Positions 3,225 through 12,020 of a DNA stretch of 16,961 nt are shown in pieces. How positions within the stretch are numbered: position 1 is the stretch's first letter; each line of letters opens with the position of its first letter. Below the pieces are notes generated by a model that saw only the letters and a program-made list of their open reading frames with translations, did not search any database and was not told the DNA's origin. Position numbers and translations under genes: made by a program. Source of the DNA: Pseudomonadota bacterium (lineage in GTDB: Bacteria > Pseudomonadota > Gammaproteobacteria > Burkholderiales > Burkholderiaceae_C). Location: NCBI GenBank assembly GCA_023460715.1, contig JAEWPH010000194.1, forward strand, positions 1 to 16,961. The letters are read 5' to 3'.

Positions 3225-3347
3225 CTGCGCAATCATTGGTACTTACCCCAAGCCCCTGGGAGAAAGACGCGCAACCTTACAATTCGGCGTCCCACCGCCT
3301 GCCCTCTGCGCGCCTCCTGGAAGCCCCGGAGCGCCGGGCCCCATCGC

Positions 3348-4349
3348 ATGAACCCCTCCCGCAAGCCCGCCACCGTGCAGGACGTCGCCCGCCTGGCCGG
3401 GGTTTCGGCGATGACGGTGTCCCGCGCGCTCAACGTGCCGGACAAGGTCACGCCGGACACGCTGCGCCGCGTACGCGAGGCCGTGGACCAGCTGGGCTAC
3501 GTGCCCAACGCCATGGCCAGCGGGCTGCGCATGTCGCGCGCGCGCATGGTGGCCGCCCTGCTGCCCACGCTGGTGGGGCCCGTCTTCCAGGAGCTCGTCG
3601 AGTCGCTGGCCGCCACGCTCGGGCGCCAGGGCTACCAGCTGCTGATTGGCCAGACCGGCTACGACGCGGCGCAGGAGGAAGCGCTGGTGCGCGGCGTGAT
3701 CCAGCGCCGGCCCGACGGCATCGTGCTGGTGGGCGTGGCCTCGTCCGACGGCGTGCGCCAGGCCTTGCGCGCCAGCAAGATTCCGGTGGTGGAGACCTGG
3801 GACCTGACCGCCGACCCGGTCGACATGGTGGTCGGTTTCTCGCACGTGGCCATCGGCCGCGACGTGGCCGCTTTCCTGCACGCGCGCGGCCACCGCCAGA
3901 TGGCCATCATCACGGCCGACGACACGCGCGCCCGCTCGCGCACGCAGGCTTTTCTCACGCAGGCCCAGGCGCTGGGCGCCGAGGTGGTGGAGCGCTTTCT
4001 CACCGTCGCGCCCAGCACGCTGGGCGAAGGCCGGCGCGGGCTGGCCACGCTGCTGCAGTCGCATCCGGGCATCACCGGCGTTTTCTGCAGCTCGGACAGC
4101 CTGGCCCTGGGCGCCGCCATCGAGGCCCAGCACCGGGGCCTGAAGGTGCCGCAGCAGCTCGCCATCATCGGCATGGGCGACCAGAGCTTCGCCCGCGACG
4201 CCCAGCCGCCGCTGACCACGGTGCGCCTGGATGGAACGCGCATCGGCGCGCTGGCCGCCGAGCTGACCATGGCCCGTGCCGAAGGGCGTGCGGTGGAGCA
4301 GACGGTGGTGGATGTGGGCTTTCACCTGGTCGAACGGGAAAGCACGTAG
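3348..4349 (+). CDS. LacI-family transcriptional regulator, GntR (gluconate repressor) type
   Basis: This 333-residue protein has the LacI-family layout. The N-terminal HTH is VQDVARLAGVSAMTVSRAL (10-28). A hinge helix lies near 49-62 (LGYVPNAMASGLR), followed by a periplasmic-binding-like effector domain. The effector domain includes VVETWDL and MVVGFSHVAIGR, which resemble the gluconate repressor GntR (VVELMD, IAVGFDN) more than LacI or PurR. The likely ligand is therefore a sugar acid. It is divergent from the Bug-gudD genes across a region with two matching operators, so I infer that it controls them and itself. No good Shine-Dalgarno precedes 3348. The start is placed just before the HTH as usual in the family. 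The exact effector is unknown. Confidence 0.92.
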   Translation: MNPSRKPATVQDVARLAGVSAMTVSRALNVPDKVTPDTLRRVREAVDQLGYVPNAMASGLRMSRARMVAALLPTLVGPVFQELVESLAATLGRQGYQLLIGQTGYDAAQEEALVRGVIQRRPDGIVLVGVASSDGVRQALRASKIPVVETWDLTADPVDMVVGFSHVAIGRDVAAFLHARGHRQMAIITADDTRARSRTQAFLTQAQALGAEVVERFLTVAPSTLGEGRRGLATLLQSHPGITGVFCSSDSLALGAAIEAQHRGLKVPQQLAIIGMGDQSFARDAQPPLTTVRLDGTRIGALAAELTMARAEGRAVEQTVVDVGFHLVEREST

Positions 4350-4412
4350 CACGCGGCCTGACCGCGCCACGCCCCCCGCTTCTTCGCCCACTTCCGCTTC
4401 TTCCCCACGCCG

Positions 4413-6314
4413 ATGCCGACCACGCCAGGCCTTCCCACCGCGCCGGCTGCCGCGCCAGCGTCGCCCTCGCCCTGGCACGCCGGGGGCCGCAGCCGCCGCC
4501 TGCTGCGGCGCATGCTGCCGGCCATCGCCGCGCTGCTGCTGCTCATCGGCCTGGGCGGCTATCTGCTGGTGGCCAACGCGCTGCGGCAGGACGTGGACGT
4601 GCAGCAGCGCTCGCGCACCTTCATCGCGCGCTCCATCGCCCAGGTGCGCAACGAGGTCGGCCGCAACATCATCAACTACAGCAAATGGGGCGAGGCCTAC
4701 AAGAATCTGCACCTGACGGTGAACACAACCTGGGCGGACGAGCAACGCAACGTGGGCGACATCCCGTTCGACCTGTACGGCTACGACGGCGTGTTCGTCA
4801 TCGGGCCCCGGGGACGCACGGTGTACGCCGTGGTCCGCGGCCAGGCCTCCGCCGTGCAGGCGCACGACTGGCTGCAGGGCGATCTGGATGGCCTGGTCGC
4901 CGCAGCCCGCGATCCGCGGCACGAAGACACCAGCATCGTGCGCGCCCTGCAGGTCGCAGGCGCGCCCGCGCTGGTGGCTGCGGCCACCATCACCCCCGGC
5001 TGGGATCCGGGCATCCGACCGCGGCCCGGGCCGGCCTCGGTGATGGTCTTCGCCACGGTGCTGGACGGCCCGCGCCTGAGCGCGCTGAGCGAGAACTACG
5101 GCGTGCCGGCGCTGACCATCTCCTCCGAGCCGCTGGCCGGGCAGGAGTCGATGCCGCTGCTGGATTCGTCCATGCGGCTGCACTGGCGCCCGCCCACGCC
5201 GGGCCGCACGCTGCTGGGGCAGACGCTGCCGCTGTTCATCGCCGGCGTGCTGGCGCTGGCGGGCGTGCTGGTTGCCCTGCTGCGCCATGCGCTCGCGTCG
5301 GCCCGGCAGATCGACGCGCAGTTCGAGGCCCTGCACGCCACGCAGGCCGAGCTGACCGAGAGCGAACAGCGCTTTCGCGACATCGCAGAGGCCTCGTCCG
5401 ACTGGCTGTGGGAGGTGGATGCCCAGGGCCGGCTCACCTACCTGTCGGAGCGGTTCACCCAGGTGACGGGCGAGCCGCGCGAGGACTGGCTGGGCCGCCC
5501 GCTCGCCGACCTGCTGGAGCCCGCCACCACAGGCCCGCAGACGCTGCCGCCCGATCTGCCTGCGGACGCCGGCGACAGCCCTGCGCGCGGCACGCGGCTG
5601 TGGCAGTACCGCGACCGGGCCGGGCGGCTGCGCACCAGCAAGATCACATCGCGGGCCATGGCACACGGCGCCGGCTACCGCGGCACGGCCACCGACATCA
5701 CCGACGAGGTCGAGGCGCAGGCCCGCGTGCGCCATCTGTCGCTGCATGATCCGCTGACCGACCTGCCCAACCGCTTGCACCTGCAGCAGTTCCTGGCACG
5801 CCAATTGGAAGCCCCGGCGCCGCGGCCCACGCCTGCCCTGGCGCTGCTGTGCCTGGATCTGGACCGCTTCAAGCCCGTGAACGACGCCTGGGGCCATGGC
5901 CTGGGCGACCTGCTGCTGCAGGCCGTGGCGCAGCGCCTGCGCGGCCAGATGCCGCCGGGCGCTATGGCCGCACGCGTGGGCGGCGACGAGTTCGTAGCCG
6001 TGCTGCCGGACATGGCGGACCGTGCCGCGGTCGAGGCGGTCTGCCACGCCCTGGTGCAGGCGCTGGGCCGGCCCTTTCGCATCCAGGGCCACGACATCGC
6101 CATCGGCACCAGCATCGGCATCGCGCTGGCGCCGGCGCATGCGCGCGAACCGGCCGAACTGCTGCGCATGGCCGACATCGCTCTGTACCGCGCCAAGGAT
6201 GCGGGCCGCAGCACCTGGCAGTTCTATGAGCGTGCGATGGAGGCCGCGCTGCCGCCCGCGCCGGCAGGCACGGCACCAGCCCCGGAGCCCCGGCCCGCCG
6301 GCCGCACGGACTAG
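4413..6314 (+). CDS. membrane diguanylate cyclase with CHASE4, PAS and GGDEF domains
   Basis: The protein has 633 residues. A first membrane helix (about 34-54) is followed by a periplasmic region of some 215 residues that begins with NYSKWGEAYK (88-97), the signature of the CHASE4 sensor. A second helix spans about 270-290. Then come a short coiled linker, a PAS domain (about 319-435; SSDWLWEVDAQGRLTYLSE) and a GGDEF domain (about 437-606). DPLTDLPNR (446-454) and an intact GGDEF (523-527) predict conversion of two GTP to cyclic di-GMP. The RxxD inhibitory site that should lie five residues before GGDEF is absent (PPGA instead). There is no EAL domain. It starts 63 bp after the regulator gene and may be co-transcribed. 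No ribosome site supports the start, so the true start could lie further in. Confidence 0.92.
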   Translation: MPTTPGLPTAPAAAPASPSPWHAGGRSRRLLRRMLPAIAALLLLIGLGGYLLVANALRQDVDVQQRSRTFIARSIAQVRNEVGRNIINYSKWGEAYKNLHLTVNTTWADEQRNVGDIPFDLYGYDGVFVIGPRGRTVYAVVRGQASAVQAHDWLQGDLDGLVAAARDPRHEDTSIVRALQVAGAPALVAAATITPGWDPGIRPRPGPASVMVFATVLDGPRLSALSENYGVPALTISSEPLAGQESMPLLDSSMRLHWRPPTPGRTLLGQTLPLFIAGVLALAGVLVALLRHALASARQIDAQFEALHATQAELTESEQRFRDIAEASSDWLWEVDAQGRLTYLSERFTQVTGEPREDWLGRPLADLLEPATTGPQTLPPDLPADAGDSPARGTRLWQYRDRAGRLRTSKITSRAMAHGAGYRGTATDITDEVEAQARVRHLSLHDPLTDLPNRLHLQQFLARQLEAPAPRPTPALALLCLDLDRFKPVNDAWGHGLGDLLLQAVAQRLRGQMPPGAMAARVGGDEFVAVLPDMADRAAVEAVCHALVQALGRPFRIQGHDIAIGTSIGIALAPAHAREPAELLRMADIALYRAKDAGRSTWQFYERAMEAALPPAPAGTAPAPEPRPAGRTD

Positions 6315-6335: not shown

Positions 6336-7265
6336 TCAGCCGGGCACGCGCCGCGCCCGGCCGCGCAGGCCTTCGAGCAGGGCCACGGTGATGCCGCTGG
6401 CGCAGATGATGCCGATGCCCACCCACGTCAGCGCATCGGGGAAATGCCCCCACACCAGCCAGCCGACCGCTGTGGCGCTCACGATCTGCAGGTAGGCGAA
6501 GGGCGCCAGCGTGGACGCCCCGGCATGCCGGTAGGCGCCGATCTGCAGCCAGTGCCCCAGTGCGCCCGACACGCCGGTGGACACCAGCAGCAGCCAGTGC
6601 AGCGGCTCCAGCGTGCGCAGCAGCGGCCACGCCGCGGGCAGCGCGAACGGCAGGGCCAGCGTGAGGCAGGCGGTGCCCACGGCGCCGCCCCACAGGAGCG
6701 AAGTGAACGGATCGTCGCGTGCCACCTGCCGCGTGGCGATGAACTGCACGGCCATGCAGCAGGCGGTGAGCAGGCCGAACACCACGCCCAGCGGATGCAG
6801 CCCGCCCCCGGGCCGCACGACCACCATCACGCCTGCGAACGCCACGCCGCACGCCAGCCAGCGCGACAGGCGCGCAGGTTCGCCCAGCAGCCAGGGCGCC
6901 ACGGCCAGCACCAGCAGCGGCGCCAGGAAGTTGATGGACGTGGCCTCCGCCTGCGGCAGGTAGCGCAGCGTGGTGAAGAACATCAGCGTGGCCAGCAGCA
7001 TGGCCGCGCCGCGCAGCACCTGCGCCCCGGGCCGGACACTGCGCAGAACGGCCTTGCCGCGCGTGGGCAGCAGCAGGCCCAGGACCAGCACCAGATGCAC
7101 CGCATAGCGCACCCAGGCCAGCACGAACAGCGGCACCCCGGCCGCCATCACCCACTTGCCCGTGGCATCCAGGCAGGACAGCGTCCACAGCGACGACACC
7201 AGGAGAACGATGCCCCAGAGGGGCCGGGCGGCCAGCGCGGGGCCGGCGGGCAGTGCAGTGTTCAT
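6336..7265 (-). CDS. EamA/DMT-family transporter
   Basis: From the ATG at 7265 this gives 309 residues with about ten hydrophobic helices arranged as two EamA repeats, the size normal for the family. Helix-end motifs of the drug/metabolite transporter superfamily are visible: LPQAEATSINFLAPLLVLAV at the end of repeat 1 and GHWLQIGAYRHAGASTLAPF in repeat 2. The open frame extends further upstream, but that part is Pro/Gly/Arg-rich and not membrane-like, so I start at MNTALPAG. No clear ribosome site is seen. Such proteins usually export metabolites or amino acids; the substrate is unknown. It is divergent from the MocR regulator with 158 bp between them, which makes it a plausible target. Its end converges on the cyclase gene with a 21-bp gap. 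Confidence 0.88.
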   Translation of the reverse strand: MNTALPAGPALAARPLWGIVLLVSSLWTLSCLDATGKWVMAAGVPLFVLAWVRYAVHLVLVLGLLLPTRGKAVLRSVRPGAQVLRGAAMLLATLMFFTTLRYLPQAEATSINFLAPLLVLAVAPWLLGEPARLSRWLACGVAFAGVMVVVRPGGGLHPLGVVFGLLTACCMAVQFIATRQVARDDPFTSLLWGGAVGTACLTLALPFALPAAWPLLRTLEPLHWLLLVSTGVSGALGHWLQIGAYRHAGASTLAPFAYLQIVSATAVGWLVWGHFPDALTWVGIGIICASGITVALLEGLRGRARRVPG

Positions 7266-7423
7266 GGGCGGGGAAAAGGCACCCGGCAGCGGGCAGGGAG
7301 AAGGCGGCGCGGTCCAGCGGCAGCCGATGCCGCCATCATACGAAGGCCTGCCTGGCAGCCCGCAGCGCATGCACAATGCGCCGCACCGCGGGCCGATCCG
7401 CCCGCCCTCCTCGACGCCCCCCG

Positions 7424-8863
7424 ATGCCCCGTCCACCCACCCCGGATCCCTTCGCGCCCCTGGCGGCACCCTCCGATGCGCCGCTGTACCGGCAGCTGTA
7501 CGACCGCTTGCGGGCCGCGCTGGCGGCCGGCACGCTGGTGGCCGGCGAACGGGTGCCGTCTGCCCGCGCGCTCGCGCGGGAGCTGGGCGTGGCGCGCGGC
7601 ACGGTGGACCTGGCCTACGAGCTGCTGGCCTCCGAGGGCTATCTGCTGGCCCGCGGGCCGGCCGGCACCGTGGTCAACCCGGCCCTGCATTCCCTGGCAG
7701 CCACCCCGCCGCCGGACGCCGCCCCGGTGCCTGCGCCGGCACCGCCCGCGCCGGACGTGCTCTCTCGCCCGGCCGAACTGCTGCCCTTTCAGATGGGCGT
7801 ACCGGCGCTGGATGCGTTCCCGCGCAAGATCTGGGCGCGCCTGGGGGCGCGCACACTGCGCGGCATGCAGCCGGCCGATCTGGACTACCCGCCCCCGTGC
7901 GGCCTGCCCGCGCTGCGCAGCGCCATCGCGTCCTACCTGCGGCTGGCGCGGGGCATCGACTGCGGCGCGCAGCAGGTCTTCGTCACCACGGGCTTTCGCG
8001 GCAGCCTGCAACTGGCGGCCCTGGCGCTCACGCAGCCGGGCGACCGCGCCTGGATCGAAGACCCGGGCTATCCACCCACGCGCCAGTTGCTGAGCGCCTG
8101 CGGGCTGGCGCTCACGCCCGTGCCGGTGGATGCCGAGGGCCTGGACGTGGAGCGCGGCATGGCGCTGGCGCCGGATGCGCGGCTGGTGGCCGTGACGCCG
8201 GCGCACCAGAGCCCGCTGTCGATGTCGCTGTCCCTGCCGCGCCGCCAGGCCCTGCTGGACTGGGCGGCCGCGCGCGGCGCCTGGGTGGTGGAGGACGACT
8301 ACGACGGCGAGTACCGCTACGCGAGCCGCCCCCTGCCCGCGCTGGCCAGCCTGGACCGGCAAGGCCGCGTGCTGTATGCCGGCACGTTCAGCAAGGTGCT
8401 GTTTCCGGGCATCCGCCTGGCCTATCTGGTGGTGCCGCCCACCCAGGTGGCGGCCTGCGAGCGCGTGACGCGCACCTTCTTCGCTGCGGCCACGCCCGCG
8501 ATGACCCAGGCCATCGTGGCCGACTTCATGGCCGAAGGCCACTTCACGCGCCACATCCAGCGCATGCGCCGGCTGTATGCGGAGCGCCGCAGCGCCACGC
8601 GCGCGGCGCTGGAACGCGGCCTGCGCGGCGCCTTGCAGACGGAACCGCAACCGGGCGGCATGCATCTGGTGCTGCGCCTGCCCGGCGCACGCACCGACCA
8701 GCCTCTGGCGGAGAAGCTGCTGGCCCAGGGCCTGGCGGTGCAGCCGCTGTCGCGCTGGTTCGCATCTGGCCGCACGGAATCCGCGATCCTGCTGAGCTTC
8801 ACCAACTGCACGGACCCGGCGCAGGCCGAGCGCCTGGGCGAGCTGATCCGCGAAGCGCTCTGA
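7424..8863 (+). CDS. MocR-family (PdxR/GabR-like) transcriptional regulator
   Basis: The protein has 479 residues. A GntR-type winged HTH (about 20-88; PLYRQLYDRLRAAL then GERVPSARALARELGVARGTV) is joined by a Pro/Ala-rich linker to a fold-type I aminotransferase domain (about 121-473). The PLP-binding Lys lies in GTFSKVLFPGIRLAYL (Lys324), and the Asp that contacts the pyridine nitrogen lies in EDDYDGEYRY (291-292). This makes it a PLP-sensing regulator rather than an enzyme. Known members control vitamin B6, GABA, taurine or ectoine genes; the target here is unknown. I chose the ATG at 7424 because the residues encoded upstream are Arg/Pro-rich and not family-like; an ATG at 7376 is the alternative. 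Neighbours are a divergent EamA exporter and a convergent AhpD-like gene. Confidence 0.93.
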   Translation: MPRPPTPDPFAPLAAPSDAPLYRQLYDRLRAALAAGTLVAGERVPSARALARELGVARGTVDLAYELLASEGYLLARGPAGTVVNPALHSLAATPPPDAAPVPAPAPPAPDVLSRPAELLPFQMGVPALDAFPRKIWARLGARTLRGMQPADLDYPPPCGLPALRSAIASYLRLARGIDCGAQQVFVTTGFRGSLQLAALALTQPGDRAWIEDPGYPPTRQLLSACGLALTPVPVDAEGLDVERGMALAPDARLVAVTPAHQSPLSMSLSLPRRQALLDWAAARGAWVVEDDYDGEYRYASRPLPALASLDRQGRVLYAGTFSKVLFPGIRLAYLVVPPTQVAACERVTRTFFAAATPAMTQAIVADFMAEGHFTRHIQRMRRLYAERRSATRAALERGLRGALQTEPQPGGMHLVLRLPGARTDQPLAEKLLAQGLAVQPLSRWFASGRTESAILLSFTNCTDPAQAERLGELIREAL

Positions 8864-9666: not shown

Positions 9667-10371
9667 TCAGATCGCCACCAGCCGCTGGATGCCCTTGGCC
9701 TGCATCTCATGCCCCGGCCCGCGGGCGATGACTTCGCCCCGCTCCATCACCAGGTACTCGTCCGCCAGCTCCTCGGCGAAGTCGTAGTACTGCTCGCACA
9801 GCAGCACCGCCACCGGATGGCCGTCCAGCCCCTCGTCGGCCAGGCGGCGGATGACGCGCCCGATGTCCTTGATGATGCTGGGCTGGATGCCTTCCGTGGG
9901 CTCGTCCAGGATCAGCAGGCGCGGGCTGGGCGCCAGCGCGCGGGCGATGGCGAGCTGCTGCTGCTGCCCGCCCGACAGGTCGCCGCCTCGCCGCCCGAGC
10001 ATCTGCTTGAGCACCGGGAACAGCGCGTACAGGTGCTCCGGCACGGCAGTGGAGCCGCTCTTGTACGCCAGCCCCATGCGCAGGTTCTCCTCCACCGTCA
10101 GGCGCCCGAAGATTTCACGCCCCTGCGGCACGAAGCCGATGCCGGCGCGGGCGCGGTCGTACGGCGCCTTGCCATGGATGGGCTGGCCGTCGAAGGTGAT
10201 GGAACCGCTCTTGATGGGCACCAGGCCCATCAGGCTCTTGAGCAGCGTGGTCTTGCCGACGCCGTTGCGGCCGAGCAGCACGGTGACCTTGCCGGGGGCG
10301 GCGGTGAGGCTCACGTCGCGCAGGATGTGGGAGCCGCCGTAGTACTGGTTGATGTTTTGGACGGTGAGCAT
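9667..10371 (-). CDS. urtE: urea ABC transporter ATP-binding subunit UrtE
   Basis: The protein has 234 residues, matching the usual UrtE length near 230. It starts MLTVQNINQYYGGSHILRDV, the typical UrtE N-terminus. Walker A is GRNGVGKTT (34-42), the Q-loop region is FVPQGREIFG, the ABC signature is LSGGQ (132-136, in LSGGQQQQLAIARAL), and Walker B is LLILDEP (152-158). It belongs to the LivF-like class and pairs with UrtD to drive uptake through UrtBC. An in-frame ATG at 10410 lies inside the neighbouring palindromic repeat and adds non-family residues, so I reject it. No Shine-Dalgarno precedes the chosen ATG; the leader is A-rich. It is last in the operon and separated from urtD by 773 bp of repeat DNA, so it may need its own promoter or depend on read-through. 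Confidence 0.94.
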   Translation of the reverse strand: MLTVQNINQYYGGSHILRDVSLTAAPGKVTVLLGRNGVGKTTLLKSLMGLVPIKSGSITFDGQPIHGKAPYDRARAGIGFVPQGREIFGRLTVEENLRMGLAYKSGSTAVPEHLYALFPVLKQMLGRRGGDLSGGQQQQLAIARALAPSPRLLILDEPTEGIQPSIIKDIGRVIRRLADEGLDGHPVAVLLCEQYYDFAEELADEYLVMERGEVIARGPGHEMQAKGIQRLVAI

Positions 10372-10390
10372 GGTTAAGGGTGTTTTTTGG

Positions 10391-10423
10391 CTATAGCGCT
10401 TATGCATCAAGCGCTAGTAGCTA
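10391..10423. repeat. AGCGCTT palindromic repeat upstream of urtE
   Basis: TAGCGCTT (10394-10401) and AAGCGCTA (10409-10416) are perfect inverted arms around ATGCATC. Oligo-T runs flank the palindrome on the plus strand (10382-10387 and about 10426-10432). In the urtE message these would be A-runs, so the hairpin sits in an A-rich leader about 20 bases before the urtE start rather than acting as a terminator for that strand. It looks related to the repeat near 603-680. I recall similar AGCGCTT palindromes as common between genes in Comamonadaceae. Confidence 0.75.
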
Positions 10424-10437
10424 TTGTTTTTTATTTC

Positions 10438-11121
10438 TGCTGTGCGATTGCTTTCCGGGGCCGGGTCTCGCCCCGGCGGGCGAGTCACTTTCTTTCGCTT
10501 CGCCGAAAGAAAGTAAGCAAGAAAGGGCGACCCTGCTGCCCGTGTCCCCTGCGCTTGCGCTACGGGGAAGCCTGCGATGCTCGCGCAGACAGGGCCGCCG
10601 TGGAACTCACTGCGCTGCGGAGCAGCTCCGTTCGGACAGCCACGGCGAGTCAGTGCACGAGGCATGCGCGCTCCGACGCGCATGCGCCCTGCCTGCGCTC
10701 CGCTTCTCGGCACGGGCAGAAGGGAACCCAAGCGCCCCACTCGGGCCATTGCTTCGCTCGGCCCTGGGCAGGGAGCCAACGCGCGCCGGTATTGGGACTG
10801 GGTCGAGCGAAGCGACGACCCGAATCGTCCCCCCGCCCTTCTGTATGCGCCGAGGAGCACAGGGCTCGGGGTGGCGGGTGTGCTGCAGGACACACCCGCT
10901 TCGTGAACTGGCTCGCTGCGACTGTCTGACCGCAGCTGCGCAGCAGCGTAGGGAGTTTCGCAGCGCACCCCGCGACCGCGCACCGCAGGTTGCCCGTAGC
11001 GCAGCGAAGGGTCGCAGACAGCAGGGTCGCCTTTTCTTTGCTTACTTTCTTTTGGCGAAGCAAAAGAAAGTGAGTGCGCCGCCGGGCGCATACCCCGGCC
11101 CCGGGAATCAACCGCACAGCA
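10438..11121. repeat. giant imperfect palindrome (about 684 bp) inserted in the urt operon
   Basis: The two halves are reverse complements along almost the full length. Outer ends are TGCTGTGCG (10438-10446) and CGCACAGCA (11113-11121). A 53/54-bp block at 10486-10538 matches the complement of 11019-11072 with about four differences. Near the centre GCTTCGCTCGGCCC (10751-10764) pairs with GGGTCGAGCGAAGC (10800-10813). The centre is close to 10780, with a loop of about 35 bp. Between these anchors the arms are diverged but alignable. Each end also contains its own hairpin (CTTTCTTTCGCTTCGCCGAAAG). No transposase is encoded. A non-autonomous, MITE-like or other dispersed repeat is the best description; target-site duplications are not obvious. 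Confidence 0.85.
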
Positions 11122-11144
11122 AAGTTCAAAGCAGCACACCACCG

Positions 11145-12016
<872 letters not shown>

Positions 12017-12020
<4 letters not shown>

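Follow-up and report, generated by a model that had tools for sequence, protein, structure and literature searches.

In triple-helix pseudoknots of the telomerase type and of riboswitches, which are H-type, a pyrimidine loop 1 lies in the major groove of stem 2. Among the dispersed repeats of bacterial genomes, REPINs are paired REP sequences that go with a RAYT transposase, the REP unit being treated as 16-mers in the account given by Bertels and Rainey (2011, PMC3116915). Intrastrand triplex repeats, the PIT and TM motifs, were described by Holder et al. (2015, PMC4666352), and the Beta-proteobacterial repeat element (BRE), about 90 bp in size, by Hot et al. (2011, PMC3110155).

The element that we describe here lies between the urea-transporter genes urtD and urtE and, judged from its sequence, is a pair of back-to-back copies, each of another arm type, of a dispersed structured repeat unit. 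BRE, which occurs in Polaromonas JS666, Delftia, Acidovorax and Bordetella, is likewise dispersed and mostly intergenic; it differs, going by the description in that paper rather than by sequence, in its size of about 90 bp and in being tandem at some loci. With the telomerase-type and riboswitch pseudoknots it shares the H-type layout and a pyrimidine loop 1, a likeness that is drawn here for a genomic repeat and by geometry only.

Structure of the urtD-urtE gap

The window (the whole stretch of DNA analyzed, 16,961 nucleotides of contig JAEWPH010000194.1) had been annotated from the sequence alone, and this first-pass annotation proposed that the urtD-urtE gap is a giant imperfect palindrome with arms of about 320-330 bp and a loop of about 35 bp. 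Self-alignment bears this out. The whole palindromic element occupies positions 10438..11121, with no strand assigned, and consists of arms of 327 and 322 bases (10438-10764 and 10800-11121) on the two sides of a likewise strandless centre of 35 bases (10765..10799). The first arm aligned with the reverse complement of the second at a local score of 206, whereas 200 dinucleotide shuffles averaged 22 and never scored above 32. Identity is 247/335 columns (74%) over the whole arms and 50/54 (93%, the figure given earlier for the ends) over the tip stretches 10486-10538 and 11019-11072, which are thus terminal inverted repeats, a feature of MITEs. RNA folding, proposed at the time as a check, predicts a strongly stable fold on both strands, with energies of -468.5 kcal/mol on the plus strand (z -25) and -478.9 kcal/mol on the minus strand (z -19), each against 20 shuffles.

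The element adjoins two minus-strand ORFs, one at 9667-10371 named UrtE by NCBIfam (TIGR03410) and one at 11145-12020 named UrtD (TIGR03411), and urtC, urtB and urtA, also named by NCBIfam, are upstream. It therefore splits the urt operon, as had been claimed. Two other minus-strand ORFs of the window, at 3243-6140 (965 aa) and 7262-8665 (467 aa), are without an NCBIfam match. None of the four ORFs (109-244 aa) inside the element has a Pfam match up to E = 1, and a coding role was rejected on these grounds. The reported lack of flanking direct repeats also holds for repeats of at least 12 bases in 10300-11250, a length that shorter target duplications would escape. At the empty sites of relatives, divergence is too great to place the ends of the element exactly.

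Beside the element, at 10389..10432 of the plus strand, there is a separate small hairpin repeat (TAGCGCTT..AAGCGCTAGTAGCTATTGTTTTTT), which reads TAGCGCTT..AAGCGCT..AGCTAT and ends with a T-run. In the nearest genome, G001, which carries six copies of the palindrome with 77-98% identity, a copy of this small repeat is found to the left of at least five of the six palindromes, and on both sides at sites a and c; its placement resembles that of terminators at gene ends.

A very stable hairpin inside an operon could mark a transcription boundary, that is, a two-way terminator or an RNA-processing hairpin that would lower urtE relative to urtD. The gap contains two terminator-like sites, as such a boundary might, but 1.1 ± 1.0 are expected and the matches are within chance. 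By rough gene calls, 14 of 35 unit pairs lie between converging genes, a setting that suits a terminator, 14 between genes of the same direction and four between diverging genes, with one side undecided in the remaining three. Three of the four diverging calls are the urt site, where the genes really run the same way, and thus about half of the pairs stand between same-way genes, which speaks against a boundary. Since a terminator also needs no pseudoknot, covarying branch or triple-helix rule, we hold this explanation to be very unlikely and favor the reading of the palindrome as a pair of repeat units.

The repeat unit and its fold

Within the stretches examined in other genera, the arm also occurs alone (loci L027, L028, L030, L033, L035 and L037). 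The arms are therefore units, and the palindromic shape arises because two folded units stand back to back. A unit is 238 (right) or 240 (left) bases long in the window and about 190 bases long in relatives. It begins near the centre with a closing stem, continues with a covarying branch that changes fast and ends at the tip in an H-type pseudoknot.

The fold was derived from 15 aligned lone units and comprises stems P1, P3a, P3b, P4, P2 and S2 together with pseudoknot stem S1. In this alignment (A2), 94.4% of cells are paired, compared with 39-48% when the partners are slid by 1-3 columns; 27 of the 53 pairs change on both sides, and the covariation score is 0.327 against 0.097 ± 0.011 in shuffles. 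P1, P3a and P3b are among the stems that covary; P4 and P2 are invariant within the set. In alignment A3, made of 150 model matches, all 49 pairs have double changes and the score is 0.422 against 0.108, values that lean towards the structure because the alignment was fitted to it. The changes on both sides of 27 of the 53 pairs support the view that structure is under selection, which the first-pass annotation had suggested, but the main selected structure would sit inside each arm.

The covariance model R1 (189 positions) recovers both arms of the window and retrieves 174 stretches at E <= 0.01 in 100 loci. The right unit (10836..11073, plus strand, 139.3 bits, E 2.4e-37) has its 5' end at the centre and its 3' end at the tip; the left unit (10485..10724, minus strand, 116.8 bits, E 3.3e-31) is likewise read outward. 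In the right unit, P1 is formed by 10836..10849 (5' strand) and 11013..11026 (3' strand) of the plus strand, and in the left unit by 10711..10724 (5' strand) and 10531..10544 (3' strand) of the minus strand; the letters of the two P1 stems are unlike and the pairing is kept. An extra hairpin of the genus-type unit is present at 10874..10899 (plus strand, stem GCGGGTGTG/CACACCCGC) in the right arm and, with a different stem, GCATGCGCG/CGCGCATGC, at 10662..10685 (minus strand) in the left one. Beyond the units, the right and left tips consist of a GC-rich hairpin and the end, at 11074..11104 (plus strand) and 10455..10484 (minus strand), respectively. The tip TGCGC-GCCGGG-GCGCA-CCCGGC of alignment A1 could fold into one or the other of two hairpins, or into a second pseudoknot, and both alternative pairings seem, by eye, to covary.

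Some matches cover a part of the unit. Loci L334 (G302) and L348 (G285) match model positions 7-136 or 14-129 only, i.e., the inner domain without the pseudoknot. Short matches at L188, L273 and L197, which come from a gammaproteobacterial bin, a viral contig and a Chitinophagaceae bin, respectively, cover little more than the tip pseudoknot and lack the inner domain.

Neighboring units within 700 bases of each other are divergent in 63 of 65 pairs, with one convergent and one tandem pair, in a count that drew on 140 of 174 and 44 of 49 covariance-model match rows. The divergent layout is kept in distant families, and in two wide pairs ORFs lie between the units. The RNA 3' ends of a divergent pair would face both flanks, as one would expect of a class-wide undescribed element whose unit, a branched RNA with a 3' triple-helix pseudoknot, copies itself through RNA, the pairs coming from the two sides of one break. 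We consider such self-copying unlikely and retain the simpler description of the palindrome as a divergent pair of repeat units.

The tip pseudoknot and its triple-helix code

H-type pseudoknots that contain a major-groove triple helix have a pyrimidine loop L1 that matches stem S2. In the units, such a loop (for example, TTTTCTTT) precedes S2 (for example, CTTTCTTTTG/CAAAAGAAAG) and is the parallel complement of the S2 purine strand, a relation that is kept when the stem changes. Matched types of loop and stem include TTTTCTTT with AAAAGAAA, TTTCTTTT with AAAGAAAA, CTTTCTTT with GAAAGAAA and TTCTCTTT with AAGAGAAA, as well as rarer ones. The right pseudoknot of the window (11027..11074, plus strand) has S1 TCGCC/GGCGA, L1 TTTTCTTT and S2 CTTACTTTCTTTTG/CAAAAGAAAGTGAG, and its L1 fits 8/8 purine-strand bases in parallel. 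In the left pseudoknot (10484..10530, minus strand), L1 is CTTTCTTG, which has one T fewer than the usual CTTTCTTTG and fits 7/8.

The best sliding match was 8/8 in 82 of 94 units. At a fixed register with the stem letters unrestricted, 110 of 129 locus/type combinations were perfect. The mean match at this register was 7.82 of 8, compared with a maximum of 6.78 in 1000 permutations, and for 20 distinct types (seven perfect) it was 7.15, compared with a permutation mean of 5.71 and a maximum of 6.4; these permutation figures overstate the certainty, given the dependence among related copies. A further scan found T opposite purine-strand A in 594 of 608 cells and C opposite G in 101 of 130; there were also 21 G-G cells, part of which probably reflect the conserved G that follows L1. 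Nine of the 96 candidates in that scan match only 1 to 6 of 8, and several of these look like chance hairpins. The right unit of L335 breaks the triple rule.

S1 covaries with the loop that it pairs with, the combinations TGGCC/GGCCA and TGCCC/GGGCA being found besides that of the right arm. In the triplex code, G is expected opposite a T-A inversion. It was found there once in L333 and once, by eye, in the left unit of L335, which has a four-base S1; another T, in the further scan, had T opposite. The two cases with G may lend the code weak support. The units also share with intrastrand triplex motifs the arrangement of three same-strand tracts that follow a triplex code and are joined by short loops. 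We infer that a triple-helix pseudoknot forms at the tip.

Strict matches to the TM_ECO triplex motif of Holder et al. (2015) occur near or between units at L335, L109, L028 and other loci. There are 13 of them in the loci examined, with at least one place counted twice (L028, L107), and none in the window.

As evidence on the strand that would fold, pairs 1-4 of the S2 extension, counted over distinct contexts, contain 23 G-U against 8 A-C; at the fifth pair, which is doubtful, the counts are 34 and 1. The 97 model-fitted rows contain 144 G-U (45 of them from one pair) against 61 A-C, and a strand-neutral alignment gives, for the outward strand, 65 G-U against 109 A-C flanked cells. Overall, G-U pairs are few, and the stems are almost all Watson-Crick. 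This mixed evidence makes RNA on the outward strand possible, and single-stranded DNA is possible too.

Distribution of the element and occupancy of sites

A DNA match is found in 57 of 120 relatives, including all 17 genomes of the genus, so that the segment is not confined to the window. Searches of relatives also agree with the remark in the first-pass annotation that such ends are common in Comamonadaceae. In a draw of 150 genomes of the family, 66 had a match to one DNA query and 84 had none, with at least one model-only carrier (G155) among the latter. The covariance model found units in 76 of 274 genomes of a class draw and in 31 of 249 genomes of a phylum draw, 11 of the 31 being from one family outside the class and having weak scores. 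Among the matches listed, the tip hairpin pattern or more was seen in Acidovorax, Variovorax, Polaromonas, Dechloromonas, Azonexus, Thiobacillus, Silvimonas, Rheinheimera and a Methylobacter bin. DNA of one unit was unmatched in 20,395 E. coli records. There were two matching records among 72,556 of plasmids, one of them a 2.5 Mb replicon, and none among 50,697 of phages; a prophage or plasmid origin was rejected on these counts. Two stretches with the hairpin pattern occur in IMG/VR.

Within the genus, the urtD-urtE site holds the palindrome in 12 of 17 genomes, and in 4 of 17 a tip or arm before urtE is cut by a contig end. In G010, the gap is 194 bases long with both tips joined, which reads as a deletion scar. 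In 13 other genomes there were 11 gaps of 1-58 bases, unrelated sequence in G022 and one case without a resolved gap. Forty further genomes were selected from 104 with UrtE; G020 had been counted before, and 39 were resolved; what follows are counts and not rates. The element is present at the site in four of the 39 (G126, G071 and G185, included because the element had already been seen there, and G209), 33 have a gap of 3-180 bases, and G163 has other sequence. Thus, the comparison of empty and filled junctions proposed earlier finds short gaps in most of the other genomes examined, and the element either arrived at the site repeatedly or was lost many times. The gap in G198 (L288) holds a palindrome whose inner branch is similar but whose tips differ and lack the pseudoknot, possibly a sister family at the same site.

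The apparent scar in G010, which retains the tips only, would suit a triplex- or hairpin-forming DNA repeat that is prone to replication or recombination errors and is kept by mutation bias, e.g., template switching. Triplex tracts are of a kind already described by Holder et al. (2015, PMC4666352), and the scarcity of G-U pairs in stems that consist nearly throughout of Watson-Crick pairs fits this as well. Template switching perfects nested hairpins, but it is not expected to change S1 and L1 together with strands with which they make up no simple hairpin, and we find the explanation quite improbable next to a repeat unit that is defined by its structure.

G004, G006, G007 and G017 lack the element at another of the G001 sites; the flanks of G001 site c, sought in 16 genomes of the genus, were found together in four, the other 12 being uninformative (short or no matches). 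Close species share their sites (5/5 in G008/G014 and 2/2 in G007/G017), which indicates that movement is rare. No insertion event between close strains was dated, and no target duplication was seen. The five palindromes found in G008 all lie in 3.35-3.85 Mb and the five found in G014 in 3.56-4.04 Mb, a range of about 0.5 Mb, as opposed to the six of G001, which are spread around the chromosome.

Partner enzymes and a possible host function

PF01797, the REPIN-type transposase, was present in 51 of 66 genomes with a match to the element and in 61 of 84 without (p = 0.57), and PF00078, reverse transcriptase, in 30 of 66 and 33 of 84 (p = 0.51), both tables resting on one DNA query that misses some carriers. 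Fifteen of the 66 matching genomes have no PF01797, and G037 lacks even a first-look candidate. Each of the 17 genomes of the genus has one PF01797 gene; within about 1.5 kb on each side of it there is no full tip, and partial ones of 14-45 bases occur at 7 of the 17 loci. RAYT as a required partner was rejected, given neither co-occurrence nor a flanking full tip, and so was a reverse transcriptase, as G001 and G037 carry the element without any PF00078 candidate. No mobilizing protein was found among these two families. Of the non-autonomous mobile repeat that had been proposed, the dispersed family and the empty sites stand, but movement, target duplication and a partner were not seen.

Sites conserved between close species, and near absence from plasmids and phages, would also be expected of multi-copy functional structured RNAs kept for the host, in which an arm would be an RNA gene or domain and the divergent pair a gene pair. 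Strong covariation, the triple-helix loop, the 3' pseudoknot, a divergent layout in distant families and presence across many families are consistent with such RNAs. However, no sigma-70 promoter-like site was found in 10372-11144 by a search with the sigma-70 consensus only, and neither the window nor 30 other loci matched an Rfam family at gathering score; with lax settings, 10300-11250 gave two matches, both at chance level. The excess of G-U is not consistent, and presence varies between genera (the 84 family genomes without a match to the one query). We regard host RNAs as a serious but doubtful alternative, and continue with the reading as a repeat.

Evolution of the copies

Whole palindromes of the same genome at different sites are 0.917 identical (n = 40), compared with 0.824 for different lineages at the same site (n = 20) and 0.825 for different lineages at different sites (n = 181). 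Copies within one genome thus evolve together, i.e., by concerted evolution. Inside a single palindrome, identity between the two arms is 0.70-0.88 (n = 24). In a tree of arms from 24 palindromes of six genus genomes and the window (FastTree, no support values), arms cluster mostly by lineage and arm type and not by site. G008, G014, G010 and G017 each have two arm types, with one on either side throughout. A common arm type is present once in all six palindromes of G001, and the arms facing it there are of several kinds. The order of arm types flips between sites in G001 and G010, and in no palindrome do both arms fall in the same tight cluster.

Long perfect palindromes are cleaved and lost in bacteria (SbcCD). 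Arms that became alike would form such a palindrome and be lost, which may be what keeps the two arms apart. SbcCD is named in the title of a reference in PMC7999016.

Discussion

On balance, we lean, with slightly better than even confidence, towards the palindrome being a divergent pair of structure-defined, non-coding, non-autonomous repeat units. The folded outward strand, whether RNA or single-stranded DNA, would be the form that is recognized and kept, and spread would proceed by the pair, which would also be what recombination or copying homogenizes. The urtD-urtE copy would then be an old chromosomal resident of the genus and not a device specific to urea transport. Against this, the stable sites in close species and the recurring urtD-urtE site could equally mean a host function.

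Many families of one bacterial class share a single fold whose triple-helix code can be tested, and a family of such elements would explain many giant palindromes of this kind. Its natural base-triple covariation is test material for triple-helix prediction. The family is also a bacterial example of concerted evolution in dispersed non-coding repeats, the arms of which nevertheless stay different.

A description of the element was not found in the literature searched, which covers few subscription papers, and it may be in print elsewhere. The details found nowhere in that literature are the pseudoknot-locked triplex tract, the large covarying unit, the divergent pairing and the concerted evolution. 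The main text of PMC4666352 mentions no Acidovorax, Comamonadaceae, Polaromonas, Bordetella or GGCGAAGC; the database that goes with it may list the tracts. Like the PIT and TM motifs, as presented there, the element is dispersed, has three same-strand tracts with a triplex code and sometimes forms inverted pairs. That motif is G/C-rich, whereas the triplex tract of the element is A/T-rich and, unlike PIT and TM, would be enclosed by an H-type pseudoknot that sits at the end of a larger covarying domain. Like REPINs, as outlined in PMC3116915, the element is intergenic and dispersed, occurs alone or in inverted pairs and is predicted to form hairpins in single-stranded DNA or mRNA; in REPINs it is apparently the pair that replicates, as it would be here. 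Unlike REPINs, its units are far longer (238 and 240 bases; model 189) and have a pseudoknot and a triple-helix rule, no full tip flanks the PF01797 gene in the genus, and the presence of the element does not track that of PF01797. Our best reading is that the element, which departs from REPINs in size and in the link to RAYT, is akin in kind to REPINs and to the triplex repeats.
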